64,000 nucleotides of DNA from Massilia agilis (lineage in GTDB: Bacteria > Pseudomonadota > Gammaproteobacteria > Burkholderiales > Burkholderiaceae_D), in the NCBI RefSeq assembly GCF_024756255.1, contig NZ_JANUHB010000002.1, positions 62,001 through 126,000 of the forward strand. Direction: 5' to 3'. The translations under genes and the position numbers were made by a program. The number at the start of each line of letters is the position of its first letter. Within the stretch, counting starts at the first letter, position 1. Under the pieces are notes generated by a model that was given only the letters and a program-made list of their open reading frames with translations, ran no database searches and was not told the origin of the DNA. Below are positions 43,401 to 51,383 of the stretch, one piece after another.

Positions 43401-44318
43401 ATGAGCAACAAACAACCAGGCTGGGCCATCGTCATCCACGGCGGCGTGGGCGAGCCGATGGACTGCCAGGACGGCTGCGAGCGCGCCGCCGAGCGCGCGC
43501 TCGAGCGCCTGCGCGAGGGCGGTGAGGCGCTGGACGCGGCCGTATCGGCCATCGTAGTGCTGGAGGACGATGGCCGCTTCAATGCCGGCACCGGCGCGGC
43601 GCTGGGGCTGGACGGGGCCACCATCGAGATGGACGCCTCGGTCATGGATACGCGCGGGCGCCTTGGCGCCGTGGCCTGCGTGCGCGACGTGAAGAACCCG
43701 GTGCTGCTGGCGCGCTCGGTCGCAGAGACGCCGCACTGCCTGCTGGCCGGCGAAGGCGCCGACCGGCTCGCCCGCGCCCTCGGCCTGTCGCCCCACCCCG
43801 GCCCAAGCGACAGGCAGCGCGAGGAGCACCGCAAGATGCTGCACGAACTGATCGGATCGATGCCGGCGATGCCGGGCGTGGACAACGGCCAGTTCGCGCA
43901 GTTCTGGAATTACAACGTGCCGCTGCAACTGCCCAAGCGCGCCAAGTGCGACACGGTGGGCGCGGTGGTACGCGACGCCGACGGCAATTTTGCGGTAGCC
44001 GCCTCCACCGGTGGATCTGCCCCCAGCCTGCTAGGCCGCGTGGGTGATACCCCGATCGTTGGCGCGGGCTTTTACGCCGGTCCCGAGGGCGCAGTGGCGG
44101 CCACCGGCATCGGCGAACAGATCATGCGCCATCTGCTGGCGCGCACCGTGTACCAGTGGATCGCCGACGGCATGCCGCTGCAGCAGGCGCTGCAGCGCGG
44201 GGTGGACCTGATCGACAAGCGTTACGAAGTCGGCCTGATCGCGGTGAGCCGGCAGGAGGCCGGCCACGCCACCAACCAGAGCGAGGACATGCCGCACGCG
44301 CGGATCATTGGACGATGA
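43401..44318 (+). CDS. iaaA: Isoaspartyl peptidase / plant-type asparaginase
   Basis: A 305-residue N-terminal-nucleophile hydrolase made as a precursor that cleaves itself before Thr185 in AKCDTVGAVV. The glycine-rich loop FNAGTGAALGLDG and ATGIGEQIM are typical. In this cluster it most likely splits beta-Asp-Arg dipeptides released from cyanophycin into aspartate and arginine. It starts the iaaA–cyanophycinase–cphA' run and overlaps the next gene by 4 nt. Confidence 0.92.
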   Translation: MSNKQPGWAIVIHGGVGEPMDCQDGCERAAERALERLREGGEALDAAVSAIVVLEDDGRFNAGTGAALGLDGATIEMDASVMDTRGRLGAVACVRDVKNPVLLARSVAETPHCLLAGEGADRLARALGLSPHPGPSDRQREEHRKMLHELIGSMPAMPGVDNGQFAQFWNYNVPLQLPKRAKCDTVGAVVRDADGNFAVAASTGGSAPSLLGRVGDTPIVGAGFYAGPEGAVAATGIGEQIMRHLLARTVYQWIADGMPLQQALQRGVDLIDKRYEVGLIAVSRQEAGHATNQSEDMPHARIIGR

Positions 44319-45199
44319 AGACCGAACCGCACAGCACCGCAGCGCACGGCCACCTCGTGATCATCGGCGGCTGCGAGGACCGCCAGCACGACAAGGCGAT
44401 CCTGTCGCGCTTCGTCGAACTATCGGGCGGCGCGCATGCGCGCATCGTCGTCATCACCGCCGCCAGCGCCAGAGCGGACGAGATGTGGCAGGTCTATGAC
44501 AGGGCGTTTGCCGACATCGGCGTGCGCCAGTGCCAGCACCTGCACCTGCAGAGCCGGCGCGACGCCAACGACGAACAGCACATCGCCGCCATCACCGAAG
44601 CCGACGGCATCTTCATGACCGGCGGCGACCAGAAGCGGCTGCTCGCGCTCATCGGCGGCACGGCGCTCGACGCCGAGATGCACACCGCACTCAAGCTGCG
44701 CGGAGCCTGCATCGGCGGCACCAGCGCCGGCGCCTCGGCCATGTCGGGCCACATGCTGGCGCAAGGACGCGCCGAGCTCCAGCCCGAGAAAGGCGCGGTG
44801 AGCCTGGGCGCCGGCCTGGGCTTCCTGCACAAGGTGGTGATCGACCAGCACTTCTCCGAGCGCCAGCGGCTGGCCCGGCTGCTGTCCGTCGTGGCCGCCA
44901 ATCCTTACCTGCAAGGCATCGGCATCGACGAAGACACCGCCCTCGTGGTCGAGCGCGGCGTCGGCATCGAGGTGCTGGGCGAAGGCGCGGTCACCATCGT
45001 CGACGGCCGCCACATGGCCACGAACATCGCTGAAATCCACGATCACATGACGCCGGAACTGATCGACGTGCGCCTGCACCTGCTGCCGTCGGGTAGCAAA
45101 TATCGCCTGCCGGACGATGCGCACACACCGGAGCGCGCGCTGCCGCCCCCGCTGCTGGAGTTCCTGGAGAACGTCACCAAGCGGAACCCCATCTCATGA
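44315..45199 (+). CDS. cphB: Cyanophycinase, intracellular type
   Basis: A 294-residue serine exopeptidase of family S51 that releases beta-Asp-Arg dipeptides from cyanophycin. The nucleophile is Ser137 in GACIGGTSAGAS, with the upstream FMTGGDQKRLL and downstream DQHFSERQRLARLL blocks typical of the family. No signal peptide, so it acts on internal granules. The ATG overlaps the iaaA stop, and its own stop overlaps the cphA' start by 4 nt. Confidence 0.95.
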   Translation: MKTEPHSTAAHGHLVIIGGCEDRQHDKAILSRFVELSGGAHARIVVITAASARADEMWQVYDRAFADIGVRQCQHLHLQSRRDANDEQHIAAITEADGIFMTGGDQKRLLALIGGTALDAEMHTALKLRGACIGGTSAGASAMSGHMLAQGRAELQPEKGAVSLGAGLGFLHKVVIDQHFSERQRLARLLSVVAANPYLQGIGIDEDTALVVERGVGIEVLGEGAVTIVDGRHMATNIAEIHDHMTPELIDVRLHLLPSGSKYRLPDDAHTPERALPPPLLEFLENVTKRNPIS

Positions 45200-47343
45200 G
45201 AATCAAGGAACAGCGCCTCCTGCGCGGGCCGAACCTGTACGCCGCGACGCCTTGCCTGGTGGCGGAGATCGATGCAGCTGGCGGCCCTTGCATGCTGCCT
45301 GGCCTGGGGGAACGCCTGCTGGCGCTGTTGCCTGCACTGCCGCCTGCTGCTTGCGCCCGATTGGCGAGCGGCGCGAGCATCGTCGATGCCATCGAACCGG
45401 TTGCCATGCACCTGCAAACGGCGGCAGGCGTACCGGCCCCGTTCAGCCGCACCATCGCCAGCCAGGGCGACCAGTACCGCATCGTGTGCGGCCACGAGTG
45501 CGAGCAGGTGGCCGCGCTGGCGCTGGACACCACCGTCGACCTGCTCAACGCGCTGGTGCGCGGCGAGCAGTATCCGATGGCAGAGGCGCTCGAGCGTCTG
45601 CGCGCGACGGCCGCGCGCCACGCCATCGGCACCAGCACGGCAGCCGTGCTGGCGGCGGCGCACCGGCGCGCAATTCCGAGCATGCGCCTGCTCGACCATG
45701 CCAACCTGTTCCAGCTCGGCTGGGGCAGCCGCCAGAAGCGCCTGCAGGCGACCATCACCGGCGCCACCAATGCCATCGCGGTTGGCATCGCCCGTAACAA
45801 GCAGCTCACCAAGACCCTGCTGGAACAGGCCGGCGTCCCGGTGCCGGCCGGCGCCACCGTGGACAGCCTCGAGGACGCCTTGCGCGTGGCACGGCAGCTT
45901 GGTGGCATCGTCACCGTCAAGCCGCTGGACGCGAACCAGGGCAAGGGCGTCACCACGATGTGCGGCACGCCGGATGAAGTCGAACGCGCATGGGAACACG
46001 CGCGTGGCTACGGCCCGCGCGTCATCGTCGAGGAATACCTGGCGGGCCGCGACTACCGCGTGCTGGTGACCGGAACCACGGTCGCTGCTGCCTCGTGGCG
46101 CCGGCCGCCATTCGTCACCGGCGATGGGCACCTCTCCATGCGCGAGCTGGTCGAGCGCGAAAACCGCAACCCGGCGCGTGGCGACGGCCATACCAACGTC
46201 CTCACCAGGATCCCGCTGGACGAGTTGGCGGCACAGACCCTGGCCGCGCAAGGGTACAGCGCCGACTGTGTGCCTGCTGCCGGCGTCGACGTCCAGTTGC
46301 GCGGCAATGCCAACCTTTCCACCGGCGGAACCGCCGAGGACGTAACCGACCTGCTGCCGGACGAGACGCGCGAGCTTTGCGTGCGCGCGGCACGCACGAT
46401 CGGCCTGGACGTGGCCGGCATCGACATCGTCTGCGAGGACATCGCCCGGCCGCTGCGCGAACAGCACGGCGGCATCATCGAGGTGAACGCAGCGCCGGGC
46501 ATCCGCATGCACCAGTACCCCAGCCATGGCAAGCCGCGCGACGCCGGTGCCGCCATCGTCGAAGAGATGTTCGGGGAGGACGATGGGCGCATCCCGGTGA
46601 TCGCGGTCTCCGGCAGCACGGGCGCAACCACGACCACGCTTTTGATCGGCCACGCCGCGCGCATGGTCGGGCTGCGGACCGGCATGACGACCACCGACGG
46701 TGTGTACATCAGCGGCGACCAGACCATGCAAGGCGACTGCACCGGCTACCGCTGTGCGCGCAGTGTCCTCAGCTCACCGGAAGTGGACATCGCGGTGCTC
46801 GAGACCGGGCACGACGGCGTCCTGCAGCATGGCCTGGCGTTCGACCGCTGCTACGTGGCAGTGGTGCTGAACGTAGCGGACGACCGCCTGGCACCGGTCC
46901 AGGCAGTGGTGGCCCATAGCGCCTCGCGCGCCGTCGTGCTCAATGCCGAGGACGACCGCTGCGTCGCAATGGCTGCGGACCTGACCGAACGCATCGAAGT
47001 GCTCTACGTCTCGCTCGACGCCGAATACCCGGTGCTGCTGCGTCACCTGGAAAGCGGTGGACGCGGCGCCTACCTGCTGGACCACACCCTGGTGATCGCG
47101 GACGGCATGCGGCACAAGGCGCTCATCGACGTGCACCAGATGCGGATTGCCCTCGGCGAGGTCGCGCGGCACATGCTCGCCACGGCGCTGTCCGCCACCT
47201 GCGCGCTGGCCGCGTCGGGCTTTGGCGCCCTTGAGATCACGGATGCGCTGCGCAGCTTTACGTGGGACTGCAAGGCCGACGCACAATGCCAGAACGCGCC
47301 AGATGTGCACGGCGCCTCGATAGGCGCGGCGATGGATTCTTGA
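45196..47343 (+). CDS. cphA': Cyanophycin synthetase paralogue CphA' with dead Mur half
   Basis: A 715-residue CphA-family protein. The N-terminal domain and ATP-grasp half look intact: NQGKG at 247–251, RPPFVTGDG near 303–311, ENRNPARGDGHTNVLTRI near 322–339, NANLSTGGTAEDVTD near 371–385 and EVNAAPGIRMH at 429–439. The Mur-ligase half is degraded. Its P-loop reads GSTGATTTT (473–481), so the Lys of GTNGKTTT is lost, and the C-terminal Mur domain present in the convergent CphA is missing. It resembles the dipeptide-joining CphA2/CphA' type. Confidence 0.92.
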   Translation: MRIKEQRLLRGPNLYAATPCLVAEIDAAGGPCMLPGLGERLLALLPALPPAACARLASGASIVDAIEPVAMHLQTAAGVPAPFSRTIASQGDQYRIVCGHECEQVAALALDTTVDLLNALVRGEQYPMAEALERLRATAARHAIGTSTAAVLAAAHRRAIPSMRLLDHANLFQLGWGSRQKRLQATITGATNAIAVGIARNKQLTKTLLEQAGVPVPAGATVDSLEDALRVARQLGGIVTVKPLDANQGKGVTTMCGTPDEVERAWEHARGYGPRVIVEEYLAGRDYRVLVTGTTVAAASWRRPPFVTGDGHLSMRELVERENRNPARGDGHTNVLTRIPLDELAAQTLAAQGYSADCVPAAGVDVQLRGNANLSTGGTAEDVTDLLPDETRELCVRAARTIGLDVAGIDIVCEDIARPLREQHGGIIEVNAAPGIRMHQYPSHGKPRDAGAAIVEEMFGEDDGRIPVIAVSGSTGATTTTLLIGHAARMVGLRTGMTTTDGVYISGDQTMQGDCTGYRCARSVLSSPEVDIAVLETGHDGVLQHGLAFDRCYVAVVLNVADDRLAPVQAVVAHSASRAVVLNAEDDRCVAMAADLTERIEVLYVSLDAEYPVLLRHLESGGRGAYLLDHTLVIADGMRHKALIDVHQMRIALGEVARHMLATALSATCALAASGFGALEITDALRSFTWDCKADAQCQNAPDVHGASIGAAMDS

Positions 47344-47345
47344 GC

Positions 47346-47370
47346 GGCTGGGCAGCAGGACTGCCCAGCC
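47346..47370. terminator. Shared hairpin between convergent cphA' and cphA
   Basis: A perfect 10-bp stem GGCTGGGCAG/CTGCCCAGCC with a 5-nt loop fills the 33-bp gap between the two stop codons. No T-run is present on either side. Its core resembles the right arm of the dispersed repeat (GGTGGGCAGG…CCTGCCCACC), so it may be a remnant of that family used as a bidirectional terminator. Confidence 0.6.
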
Positions 47371-47376
47371 TGCGGT

Positions 47377-49773
47377 TCACGCCGTTTGCGCAGCAATCAG
47401 GTCGGCGCTCTCCGGATCGGTGACGCGCAGCGCCTCGATGAACACGCGCAGCGACGAGCCGCACGAAAACACCAGCACATCGCCCGGCGCGCACAGCGAC
47501 AGGCCCAGCCGGATCGCATTGCCGACATCGAGCTCGCGATGCAGGGTGTCCGATGGGCCGACCACTTCCTCTGCGCCTTCGAGGATCAGGTCCACCGTCT
47601 CGCCCGGCGCGCGGCCGCGCAGCGACGAGTCGTACACCACCAGCTCGTCAAAGCGCTCGCCGCACACTTCGCCAATCTCCAGCAAATCCTCGTCGCGCCG
47701 GTCGCCGGGTGCCGTCACGATCCCGACCAGCTGGCGCGGCAGCATGGCGCGCGCCATCTCCGCCATCGCCACGTACGCGGCCGGATTGTGGGCATAGTCG
47801 ACGATCACGGTCACGCCGCGCACGTCGAATACGTTGGTGCGCAGCGGATTGGTCTTGCCGTCCGAGACAAAGGTCGACAAGCCCCGGGCGATCTGCATGT
47901 GCAAAAAGCCGCAGGCCATCAACGCTGCGGCTGCCGCGAGCGCGTTGGCGATGTTAAACCGCGCCAGGCCGCCAAACGCGGCAGGCATGCTTTCCACCCG
48001 CAGCAGCTCGACCTGGCGCTTGCCGTCGGCAAGCACGATGGCGTTGTCCTGCAGGTAGGCGCCGCGCCCGCCGTCGCCCAGGTGCTTGAGCAGCACGGGG
48101 TTCTCCGGCTCCATCGAGAAGAACACCACCTCCGTGTTCGGCTTCAGCCGCCGCACCATCGCCACGCACAGCGCGTCCTGCGCGTTGAGCACCGCCGCGC
48201 GCGAGGCCGACGCCGCCACCACGGTCTTCACCTGCGCCAGGTCCTCGATGGTCTCGACGCCATCGAGCCCCAGATGGTCCGGCGACACGTTCAGCACCAC
48301 GCCCACGTCGCAGCGGTCGAACGCCAGCCCGCGCTTGAGGATGCCACCGCGCGCCGTCTCCAGCACCGCGAACTCGACGTCCGGCGCGGCCAGCACGGTG
48401 CGCGCCGACCAATAGCCGGTGCAGTCGCCCACCGCCACGGTCTTGCCGTTGATGTACACGCCATGGGTGGTGGTCACGCCCGTGACCCGGCCGGCCATGC
48501 GCGCGGCATGCGCGATCATCAGCGCCGTGGTGGTCTTGCCATTGGTGCCGGTGACCGCGACCAGCGGGATACGCCCGTTCGAATCGCCCATCAGGCTGTC
48601 GAGCACGGCCGCGCCGGCGTCCGGATGTTGTTGCAGGGCGATGTCCGATCCGGCGTTCACCTCGATCACCGCCCCGCCCTGCGCCGCCAGCGGCTGCGAA
48701 ATGTCGCGGCACACGATGTCGATGCCGGCCACGTCCAGCCCGACCGTTGCTGCGGCGCGCACGCACAGCCGGCGCGTCGGCTCGGGCAGCAGCCCGGTCA
48801 CGTCCTGGCCAGCATCGCTGCCTTTGTCGACCCGCCGGGCCGAAACAACGCGGCCGCCTGCGACCAGCACGCGGTATGCGCTGCCCTCGACGGCTCGCTC
48901 GACGATGATGCGCCGCGCGTAGTTGTGCGCCAATGCATAAGCACGCTCGATATCGTCGCGGGTGCTGCAGTTGACACTCACGCCCTCGCCTGCGTCCAGC
49001 GGCTTGACCGTGACCGGGCCGCCGACCCAGCGCGCCACCTCGAGCGCCTCGTCCAGCGAGCGCACGACGTCACCCTGCGGTACCGGCACGCCGGCCTCCT
49101 GCAGCAAGGACCTGGCGAGCTGCTTGTCGCTGGCGATCTTCGCGGCGACAAAGCTGGTCTCGCTGGTGGCGCCTGCCTGCAGGCGCCGCTGCTTGACGCC
49201 CCAGCCGAGCTGGAACAGGCTGGCGTCCTCGGTCAGCCGCTGCACCGGCACGCCGCGCTCGTGCGCCGCGGCCAGCACCGCCGCCGTGCCAGGGTCGATG
49301 GCATGCCGCGCCACGATCTCGCGCAGCTCGGCCAGGCGCGGGCCAAGGTCGAACGGCTGGCCGTGGCCGAGCGCATCGGCGATCTGCACCGCCAGCCGGA
49401 ATGCCGGTTGCGCCACGCTCTCCACTTCATAGGCGCAGACGATGCGCACGTGCCCGGGCCTGCGGGCCGCCGGATTGGTGCGGCCGTAGCTGACGTGTGT
49501 TCCGGCCAGCGTCTGCAGTTCCAGGGTCAGCTGCTCGACCACGCGCCCGAGATAGGTCCCCTCGCGCAGGCGCTGGGCAAAGCCGCCGCGCTGCCCGGTC
49601 GGCACCAGCTGGCCGTGCAGCGAGGGCAGCAGCGCGAGCAGTGCGTCGTTAAAGCCGGGGATGTCCTTGCTCGAGACGCCGTACAGATCGTCCAGGTCGA
49701 GCACGCTGAGCAGGCATGGGCTGTCGGCGTGGATGTTCGGTCCGCGCAGGAAGCGCTGTTCCAGGATGTACAC
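47377..49773 (-). CDS. cphA: Cyanophycin synthetase CphA with degraded ATP-grasp half
   Basis: A 798-residue CphA-family protein. The Mur-ligase half is complete: P-loop GTNGKTTT at 409–416, ETARGGILKRGLAFDRCDV, LNVSPDHLGLDG and VDYAHNPAA near the C-terminal domain. The ATP-grasp half is not. The Gly-rich loop reads DAGEGVSVN (260–268) instead of DxNxGxGV. About 71 residues between YRVLV (300–304) and DVTGLLP (324–330), present in CphA', are absent, and EVNAAPGxRMH has become EVNAGSDIALQ. The frame is intact, so this looks like specialisation, not a pseudogene. Confidence 0.92.
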   Translation of the reverse strand: MYILEQRFLRGPNIHADSPCLLSVLDLDDLYGVSSKDIPGFNDALLALLPSLHGQLVPTGQRGGFAQRLREGTYLGRVVEQLTLELQTLAGTHVSYGRTNPAARRPGHVRIVCAYEVESVAQPAFRLAVQIADALGHGQPFDLGPRLAELREIVARHAIDPGTAAVLAAAHERGVPVQRLTEDASLFQLGWGVKQRRLQAGATSETSFVAAKIASDKQLARSLLQEAGVPVPQGDVVRSLDEALEVARWVGGPVTVKPLDAGEGVSVNCSTRDDIERAYALAHNYARRIIVERAVEGSAYRVLVAGGRVVSARRVDKGSDAGQDVTGLLPEPTRRLCVRAAATVGLDVAGIDIVCRDISQPLAAQGGAVIEVNAGSDIALQQHPDAGAAVLDSLMGDSNGRIPLVAVTGTNGKTTTALMIAHAARMAGRVTGVTTTHGVYINGKTVAVGDCTGYWSARTVLAAPDVEFAVLETARGGILKRGLAFDRCDVGVVLNVSPDHLGLDGVETIEDLAQVKTVVAASASRAAVLNAQDALCVAMVRRLKPNTEVVFFSMEPENPVLLKHLGDGGRGAYLQDNAIVLADGKRQVELLRVESMPAAFGGLARFNIANALAAAAALMACGFLHMQIARGLSTFVSDGKTNPLRTNVFDVRGVTVIVDYAHNPAAYVAMAEMARAMLPRQLVGIVTAPGDRRDEDLLEIGEVCGERFDELVVYDSSLRGRAPGETVDLILEGAEEVVGPSDTLHRELDVGNAIRLGLSLCAPGDVLVFSCGSSLRVFIEALRVTDPESADLIAAQTA

Positions 49774-49800: not shown

Positions 49801-51243
49801 TCAAGCGTCCAGCAGGCGCGCGAACATGCGGGTGGCCATCAGGCCCGGCGCGGTGTGGTGCTGCGCTGGCCCCATCAGTTCACGCAGCACCTCCATCGCT
49901 TCCTGCTTGTTCGCCGCCCCCGCGATGCGCTGTTCGAGCACGCGCAATTCGTTGTCCGTGCCTTCGTCCTCGTGCGCGTGGCGGCGGATCAGGCCGCGCT
50001 CGGGCTGCGGGCCACGCGGCTCCTGCTGGCCCAGGTTGTCGAGCGCGCGCTGGCGCGCCCGGTGGCTCGGCACCCGGCGCGAAGTCTCGCCCTGGCCATC
50101 CGCGATCCAGTCATGCAGCACCTCCAGCTCGTAGGCGCTGAAGACGCCGAACATCTCGGCCCGCTCGCCGCTCACCAGCCGCCAGAACCGGCTGTTGCCC
50201 GGATCCTCGCCACGGCTGATCCAGCCCGCCGACTGCAGCGCCGCCAGGAAGGCCGGGATCTGGGCCGGGTCGGACAGCCAGTCGTTGACCGCCCGCCCGC
50301 CCACGCGGCAGTAGTCCGAGTGCAGGTTGCGGCCCACGGTGCTTTTCGCGGCCAGGATGCGCACCAGCTCGTCCTGCAGGTCGAATTCGGCGATGACCGA
50401 GGTGGTGCTGGCGCCGGGCTCGTTGAGCCGGTAGCCGTCCAGCACGCGGCGCCAGAACGCCGCACGGTCGCCCACTTGCGGCAGCAGGCGTTCAAGCGCC
50501 TGCACGGCCTTGTGCGCATGCCCGCTGGCCGCGTTGTCCACGGTGACGTGCAGGGTGAAGTAATACGGGTCGATGCCCAGCTCATTGAGCTCGTAGGCGC
50601 TGACCAACAGGTGCAACGGCAGCTGCTCGTAGCCCAGGTTGTAGCCCACGATCTCGGGCAGGAACTGCCCGGCGTTGTGCGCCAGCGCGAGCTGGATCGC
50701 ACCCTGCACGAAATGATGCTCCGGCAGCTGCTCCCAGCCCTCGCAGCCGTGCGTGGCCAGCAGCTTGCGGTACAGGGTGACGTGGTTCTTCCCCGGCACC
50801 CCGTCGCCCAGCTCCTCCAGATAGGTCCGGATCAGCGGGCGGACATCGGGATTGGCCCATTGGCGCAGCAGGCCGTACAGCCACGCGCCGTCCACCAGCT
50901 TGGTGGGCGCCACGCCCTTAAGGAAGTACAGCGCGTGCGCGCGGCTGCCGAAATAGCGCCGCGGTGCGCCGTTCTTGCGGGCCGCAAGGTAGTCGCGGTA
51001 TTGCAGGCCCACGGCGTCCACACGGTCGCGCATCCAGGCCGCCAGCGCGGCCGGCGTATCGGGCAGGTCGGCGGGGATGTCGCGCACGGCATCGATCTGC
51101 TCGCGCAGGAAGGCCTGCGCCGCGACCGCGGCCGCGCCGGGGTCGGACATCAGCTTGAAGTACAGATGACGTGCACGCGGGGACACCGCGCAGCGCGACG
51201 GCGGCGCGGCAATGCTTGCATCCAGAACGGCGGGCGAACTCAT
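49801..51243 (-). CDS. Iron-containing redox enzyme (haem-oxygenase-like diiron oxidase)
   Basis: A protein of about 480 residues whose central part looks like the haem-oxygenase-like diiron (HDO) fold. Likely iron ligands are in PEIVGYNLGYE and YYFTLHVTVDNAASGHAHKAV (Glu…His-x3-Asp-x5–7-His). The C-terminal 100 or so residues are charged and rich in Arg/Gln/Glu. I chose the ATG at 51243; a TTG 15 codons upstream is possible. It is 27 bp before cphA on the same strand, so probably co-transcribed. HDO enzymes oxidise amino-acid-type substrates; its role here is unknown. Confidence 0.78.
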   Translation of the reverse strand: MSSPAVLDASIAAPPSRCAVSPRARHLYFKLMSDPGAAAVAAQAFLREQIDAVRDIPADLPDTPAALAAWMRDRVDAVGLQYRDYLAARKNGAPRRYFGSRAHALYFLKGVAPTKLVDGAWLYGLLRQWANPDVRPLIRTYLEELGDGVPGKNHVTLYRKLLATHGCEGWEQLPEHHFVQGAIQLALAHNAGQFLPEIVGYNLGYEQLPLHLLVSAYELNELGIDPYYFTLHVTVDNAASGHAHKAVQALERLLPQVGDRAAFWRRVLDGYRLNEPGASTTSVIAEFDLQDELVRILAAKSTVGRNLHSDYCRVGGRAVNDWLSDPAQIPAFLAALQSAGWISRGEDPGNSRFWRLVSGERAEMFGVFSAYELEVLHDWIADGQGETSRRVPSHRARQRALDNLGQQEPRGPQPERGLIRRHAHEDEGTDNELRVLEQRIAGAANKQEAMEVLRELMGPAQHHTAPGLMATRMFARLLDA

Positions 51244-51383
51244 GGCGTACGTTTCGATTTCGAAAATCCTCTCAGACAATTGCAACAATTATCCGGAGGC
51301 CATCCATGGCCGGAAATCGGTACGCGCGCTGCCGCGTTGTAAGAACTGGATTACAAAAAAATTAACGTTCGGAAAGAACGCCC

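Follow-up and report, generated by a model that had tools for sequence, protein, structure and literature searches.

Two convergent genes of the soil bacterium Massilia agilis encode cyanophycin synthetase paralogues that have lost opposite catalytic halves. The window analysed was the whole stretch of 64,000 nucleotides (contig NZ_JANUHB010000002.1, positions 62,001 to 126,000 of the forward strand), and its genome was labelled G000. CphA' (hereafter Y) was encoded on the plus strand at 45196..47343 (715 amino acids, aa) and CphA (hereafter X) on the minus strand at 47377..49773 (798 aa), both as placed by an earlier sequence-only reading of this DNA. With the ATP-grasp half denoted G and the Mur half M, residue alignment and the ratio of nonsynonymous to synonymous substitution rates (dN/dS) identified Y as an ATP-grasp-only and X as a Mur-only paralogue. 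The split holds up as real; it recurs and is under selection. That the two halves function jointly is the likeliest explanation of these sequences, and a one-chain enzyme seems to have turned into a two-protein system. The residue losses, the crossed dN/dS and the recurrence in relatives favour recurrent subfunctionalisation as the probable reading, with Y as the backbone ligase and X as the side-chain ligase acting on one polymer. The setting is supportive, as genes for a cyanophycinase and an isoaspartyl peptidase adjoin Y.

Opposite losses in X and Y

Residues were compared with the solved enzymes SuCphA1 and TeCphA1, whose numbering agrees at the sites used. The module limits were those of PMC9427784 (Gcore 162-234, 306-324 and 400-487; Glid 235-305; G-omega 325-399; Mlid, the C-terminal part). 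The gap of about 71 residues claimed for X was found to coincide very nearly with the G-omega module (TeCphA1 325-399), of which 6 of 75 positions were left, with the junction at 48805..48831 (minus strand). X was also without 9 of the 88 Gcore3 positions, its ATP-grasp P-loop (DAGEGVS, 48976..48996, minus strand) was short by two residues, including the His267 position, and position 458 had Ala for Arg. In solved CphA1 the G-omega module recognises aspartate, Asn394 in one of its loops binds the substrate aspartate, and TeCphA1 mutants with Ala at Asn394, Arg323 or Arg458 were impaired (PMC9427784). The Mur half of X had been described as complete, and every active-site residue checked was indeed present (K499, T500, T522, E558, D585, H586, H748 and DRR 776-778), with an intact P-loop (GTNGKTTT, 48526..48549, minus strand). 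X had, in short, the P-loop Lys, DH motif and Mlid of a CphA1 Mur half, and not the G-omega module, His267 and Arg458 of a CphA1 ATP-grasp half.

Y showed the reverse. Its ATP-grasp half kept K220, K261, R309, R323, N394, S396, D431, E450 and R458, among them the Asp-binding residues R323, N394, S396 and R458 of CphA1, and alignment to SuCphA1 placed a retained G-omega module at residues ~304-378 (46105..46329, plus strand). One correction concerns the NQGKG motif attributed to Y, which has Gln for His267. Gln at 267 was rejected as a lesion specific to Y, since the aligned full copies of the genus have the same Gln, including an 858-aa CphA at a second locus; His267 was kept in many Y-type proteins of genus g64. 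The reported absence of the Mur P-loop Lys and of the C-terminal Mur domain was borne out: position 499 had Ala for Lys (Ala477 in GSTGATTT, 46612..46635, plus strand), the Asp585-His586 motif was broken by a change of His586 to Arg followed by a gap of ~11 residues, and Mlid was nearly gone (21 of 128 positions left). Y accordingly had none of the three CphA1 Mur-half features, P-loop Lys, DH motif and Mlid; the TeCphA1 K499A mutant was impaired (PMC9427784). Neither protein reached the TIGR02068 (NCBIfam) cut-off of 850 (X 804.5, Y 699.4).

The nearest surveyed relative, G002 (taken as M. solisilvae JCM 31607), had the same losses in X (95% identical) and Y (89% identical), which rules out assembly error as their source. 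Searches with tblastn (E <=1e-3) downstream of the Y stop in the window, in G002, in a genome labelled G171 and in a Rubrivivax metagenome-assembled genome (MAG) gave no Mlid fragment; the matches were X's own Mlid only, plus short in-frame Y remnants in the window and G171. A hidden Mlid piece beyond the Y stop was thereby ruled out in these four.

Y could also be read as a CphA2-like enzyme that re-polymerises beta-Asp-Arg dipeptides, with X as an unrelated side-chain ligase and no common polymer cycle; we consider this unlikely. In its favour, the Mur P-loop Lys and Mlid are missing from Y just as from CphA2 (PMC9427784), and Y is without the full N-domain Cx19HxxEH motif, which is absent from CphA2 as well (PMC9262961). 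Compared at TeCphA1 sites only, Y nevertheless keeps R323, N394 and R458, residues to which incoming free Asp reportedly binds in that enzyme (PMC9427784). TeCphA1 7wae was the best structural match for the AlphaFold models of both proteins (pLDDT 87.7 for X and 83.7 for Y), and Y was nearer to CphA1 than to CphA2 by model (TMq 0.83 vs 0.61) and by sequence (38% vs 24%). A CphA2-like Y would moreover not alone account for the G losses in X.

Selection on the halves was compared by simple Nei-Gojobori counting between G000 and G002, with 95% intervals from a bootstrap over codons and 11 hand-picked intact pairs (one genome used twice) as controls. The dN/dS of X was 0.385 (0.21-0.64) in G vs 0.035 (0.01-0.08) in M, and that of Y was 0.140 (0.07-0.23) in G vs 0.424 (0.26-0.67) in M, the Fisher p for the difference being 1.2e-6 in X and 0.0063 in Y. 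Control ranges were 0.021-0.141 (X-G), 0.018-0.082 (X-M), 0.081-0.123 (Y-G) and 0.045-0.120 (Y-M). The crossed contrast was seen in 0 of the 11 control pairs, whose lowest p values were 0.0501 (X) and 0.065 (Y); from the former, X-G tends to be slightly faster than X-M even among some intact pairs. Where a G-less X was paired with a full Y, only X-G was relaxed (G031-G061 p 0.0017; G021-G035 p 8.7e-6) and the Y halves were even (p 0.52 and 0.88, respectively). The N domain was raised in X (0.278; six controls 0.071-0.142), and that of Y (0.386) was inside its control range of 0.150-0.405.

Recurrence in the genus and family

The genus sample held 62 genomes, of which 59 had an X/Y-type Mur half, and all 59 loci were taken. 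Both proteins were full in 49; a G-less X stood with a full Y in six (G021, G031, G035, G061, G062 and G065), two were reciprocal (G000 and G002), one had a G-less X without Y (G084, taken as M. terrae), and one was frameshifted. The last, G077, with both X and Y frameshifted, was set aside to leave 58 classifiable genomes; in G023, X was cut at a contig end with its G half intact. The frameshifts of G077 and the Y of G390, broken near its start, are sequencing errors or decay. Among the classifiable genomes X had lost M in 0 of 58 and Y had lost G in 0 of 57, and M was gone from Y in 2 of 57, each time alongside a G-less X. The nine G-less X proteins required four changes on a quick Mur-half tree, three of which strongly supported branches make unavoidable; one clade was formed by G000, G002 and G084, and a Gly at 450 common to G021, G031, G035, G061 and G065 may mark a single event. 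The Y of G062 was the sole genus Y with the full CHEH primer motif in the alignment, and its X (581-aa frame) was reduced to little more than the N and Mur parts.

It is improbable, and the least so favoured of the alternatives weighed here, that the locus is simply redundant with a canonical pair and that X and Y are becoming pseudogenes. Such a canonical pair is present in the genome, and Y is deleted in M. terrae. Against decay, the frames are open across species, X-M and Y-G are constrained (0.035 and 0.140) with the lost halves relaxed, and the domain losses in the 58 classifiable genomes hit opposite halves only.

At family level, 392 genomes were sampled with four candidates scored per genome, and an X/Y-type Mur half at E <=1e-110 was found in 95. 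Forty of these lay outside the genus and were searched with Y, giving a Y-type protein in 36; the remaining four (G096, G100, G158 and G161) had G-less copies beside a canonical pair. In this family sample, every genome with a Y-type ATP-grasp half (E <1e-125) also had an X/Y-type Mur match. A G-less paralogue was present in 15 of the 36 Y-bearing genomes outside the genus, and 13 of the 15 faced a CphA on the same stretch. G-less paralogues were also found in Rheinheimera, Shewanella profunda and the Rubrivivax MAG. A class-wide search for the G-less form with the Rheinheimera protein (three candidates scored per genome) matched 5 of 369 genomes; the four matches besides the window genome were frames of 882-951 aa, a length that excludes the G-less form, which is therefore rare or diverged outside the family.

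A quick tree was built of 111 Mur halves, which included 21 of the 59 genus genomes, dropped rows covering <90% of the Mur half and was without six later-fetched loci. Its 26 G-less rows required eight changes, at least six of them forced by strong branches, with some branches long. For all 26 the genome has a second CphA with a G half complete by residues or by unbroken match.

The loss of the Mur half in Y arose three times, here, in G171 and, as a weaker case, in the Rubrivivax MAG. In the Y of G171 (844-aa frame), Thr replaced Lys499, His replaced Asp585 and hardly any Mlid was left, and the X on the same contig (766-aa frame) was without most of Gcore2 and G-omega. The CphA downstream in the Rubrivivax MAG was without Mlid and kept Lys499, which makes this third reciprocal case the weaker one. 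On a tree of 56 ATP-grasp halves the Mur-dead Y proteins (G000, G002, G171, Rubrivivax) required three changes, all forced by supported branches, and a single-change history was found in 0% of 200 bootstrap trees. The matched loss on the partner, which the sequence-only reading had proposed as new, was thus real and not unique, being common to M. solisilvae and independent in G171.

The order of losses could be read in one group. G171, G418 and G390 formed one clade in both genes (100/100), and G418 and G390 had a G-less X like that of G171 with a Y whose Mur residues were intact; the loss of G therefore preceded the loss of M in the G171 group. The window lineage is only consistent with the same order, because its next relative, M. 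terrae, has a G-less X and no Y.

A Mur-dead Y stood with a G-less X in 3 of 3 genomes (G000, G002 and G171; two lineages), vs a background of 23 of 93 (binomial p 0.014). The 93 Y-bearing genomes comprised 57 of the genus and 36 of the family outside it; the counts were made by hand, the p value ignores relatedness and the Rubrivivax MAG was outside the sample. With two lineages, the association is only suggestive.

It bears on another account of X, to which we give a low probability: that X adds something other than Arg or edits the polymer of any CphA, for instance by filling unmodified Asp, its G-lessness reflecting a new role. G-less proteins do occur beside a canonical CphA and without a Y-type protein in G084, G096, G100, G158 and G161, and the Mur half of X is under strong constraint (0.035). 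On the other side, a G-less X was present wherever Y had lost its own Mur half, with the Rubrivivax MAG as one more such case, and this suggests that X could replace Y's Mur activity. The proposal of two single-function proteins was supported by residues, crossed selection and recurrence, and that they work as a complex is at most a possibility. The G-less forms of those five genomes imply that X does not need Y itself.

Locus arrangement and the canonical pair

Upstream of Y on the plus strand lie an isoaspartyl peptidase gene (IaaA-like, 43401..44318; Asparaginase_2 E 1.1e-69; inferred ATG start) and the cyanophycinase gene cphB (44315..45199; TIGR02069 270.5 bits, cut-off 126.6; inferred ATG start). 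The three genes have successive 4-base overlaps, cphB overlapping both neighbours. X is convergent with Y, and their stop codons are 33 bases apart across a perfect inverted repeat read directly at 47346..47370 (10-base arms, 5-base loop), a possible shared bidirectional terminator. On the same strand as X and 27 bases upstream of it is a gene for an iron-containing redox enzyme (haem-oxygenase-like, 49801..51288, minus strand; PF14518 E 9.6e-28), which might act on arginine or on the polymer. Homologues were found in the fetched genus stretches for iaaA in 57, cphB in 58 and the iron enzyme in 57 of 59; G023 was counted as missing for all three since a contig end cuts the locus, and in M. terrae, which has lost Y as well, the iron enzyme had no match at this locus. 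The iaaA-cphB-Y and X-redox enzyme genes constitute one conserved locus.

A PF08245 profile search of the same genome listed Mur-type proteins and pointed to a second cyanophycin locus outside the window, a tandem pair of 739 and 858 aa at C1:1102372-1107065 of G000. The 858-aa protein kept all checked G and M residues except for Gln at 267. The 739-aa protein had His267, altered Asp-binding positions (R323G, a gap at 396 and R458L), no Mur site and the full Cx19HxxEH primer-making motif, and may be a proteobacterial CphA2-like enzyme. Y was 37% identical to this member, whereas its listed orthologues from the genus reached 63-91% identity to Y across the N and G domains, which ruled Y out as the ordinary cphA' of a tandem pair. 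The cphA'/cphA pair mentioned in the sequence-only reading is thus this other locus and not X and Y.

Proposed mechanism and known systems

In the proposed mechanism, X and Y would trace back to a pair of paralogous cyanophycin synthetases, each bifunctional, at a single conserved locus. X would first have lost the aspartate-adding ATP-grasp activity, with Y still supplying that step, and Y would then have lost the arginine-adding Mur activity, supplied by X. Y would now lengthen the poly-Asp backbone and X would add the residue of the side chain, probably Arg; polymer from this pair would then require both proteins. The catalytic activity of each half, the Asp and Arg substrates, the passage of the chain between X and Y and mixed oligomers are what we infer from the sequences. 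The stronger form of this reading, in which we see an even chance, is an obligate two-protein cyanophycin synthetase whose backbone-only and side-chain-only ligases pass one chain to and fro. It would have evolved at least twice, probably on three occasions, and where the order is readable the G half went before the M half.

Several points weigh against these readings. The main caution is that polymer production in the cell would not plainly require X and Y, because the canonical 858-aa protein keeps the checked G and M residues apart from Gln at 267; the canonical pair may thus make X and Y redundant. Overexpressed cphA homologues of R. eutropha gave no detectable cyanophycin (Adames 2013, cited in PMC8560796). 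Six genus genomes pair a G-less X with a full Y, so there is no drive of the pair towards complete reciprocity, and M. terrae keeps X though Y is deleted. X may serve another partner or reaction, given its persistence without Y in M. terrae and the G-less proteins of G096, G100, G158 and G161, which stand beside the canonical pair only. Y has Gln at 267, where all four solved CphA1 enzymes have a catalytic His (five listed sequences, two being SuCphA1), and the H267A mutation reportedly inactivates SuCphA1 (PMC9262961). Lastly, the Mur remnant of Y is still constrained (0.42, not 1), and Y-G at 0.140 is slightly higher than its controls (0.081-0.123).

In CphA1 a single chain polymerises iteratively at active sites that lie apart, and a naturally split version would allow a test of whether G and M need one chain, one oligomer or only one cell. 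The relatives offer intermediates with both proteins full, one half lost, both halves lost or one gene gone, and the split pair would supply separate ligases for making modified polymers. If true, an obligate two-protein synthetase would be a natural replicate experiment in enzyme splitting. No description of such a split X/Y pair was found among the titles and abstract openings listed from CC-licensed literature, a scope that leaves out most subscription journals and does not establish absence from print.

The N domain of CphA1 keeps a loose grip on the growing chain, which alternates between the G and M sites (PMC9262961). According to the Fig. 4 legend of that paper, a G-M+N+/G+M-N- dimer had, with primer, a rate similar to that of a dimer with all sites on one protomer; its body text gives a different combination, with N opposite to G and M, and as a precedent for dividing G and M between chains the paper is equivocal. 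The full Cx19HxxEH primer-making motif is absent from both X and Y of G000, from which a dependence on primers is predicted for the pair. The X model had high confidence across most of the Gcore remnant, which could be a scaffold for mixed oligomers. The SuCphA1 oligomer residue Trp672 is Arg in both X and Y, and their oligomer may thus differ from that of SuCphA1.

Compared with CphA1 (SuCphA1, TeCphA1), the fold and domain order are the same, with the Mur active site found in X and the ATP-grasp site in Y; CphA1 has both sites on one chain, whereas X and Y have one each. CphA2 has in common with Y the loss of the Mur P-loop and Mlid, but Y differs in keeping the Asp-binding residues and is closer to CphA1 by sequence and model; we know of no Mur-only partner of CphA2. 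Each half resembles one of the ligases GshF and MurE, whose substrates are, by contrast, glutathione or peptidoglycan precursors and not a polymer. The canonical tandem pair, named cphA'/cphA in betaproteobacteria, also has a member (739 aa) with a dead Mur half, but its losses are one-sided, since the 858-aa partner keeps its G and M residues (Gln at 267). Its proteins are 37% and 44% identical to Y and stand at a separate locus, in tandem and not convergent as X and Y are.

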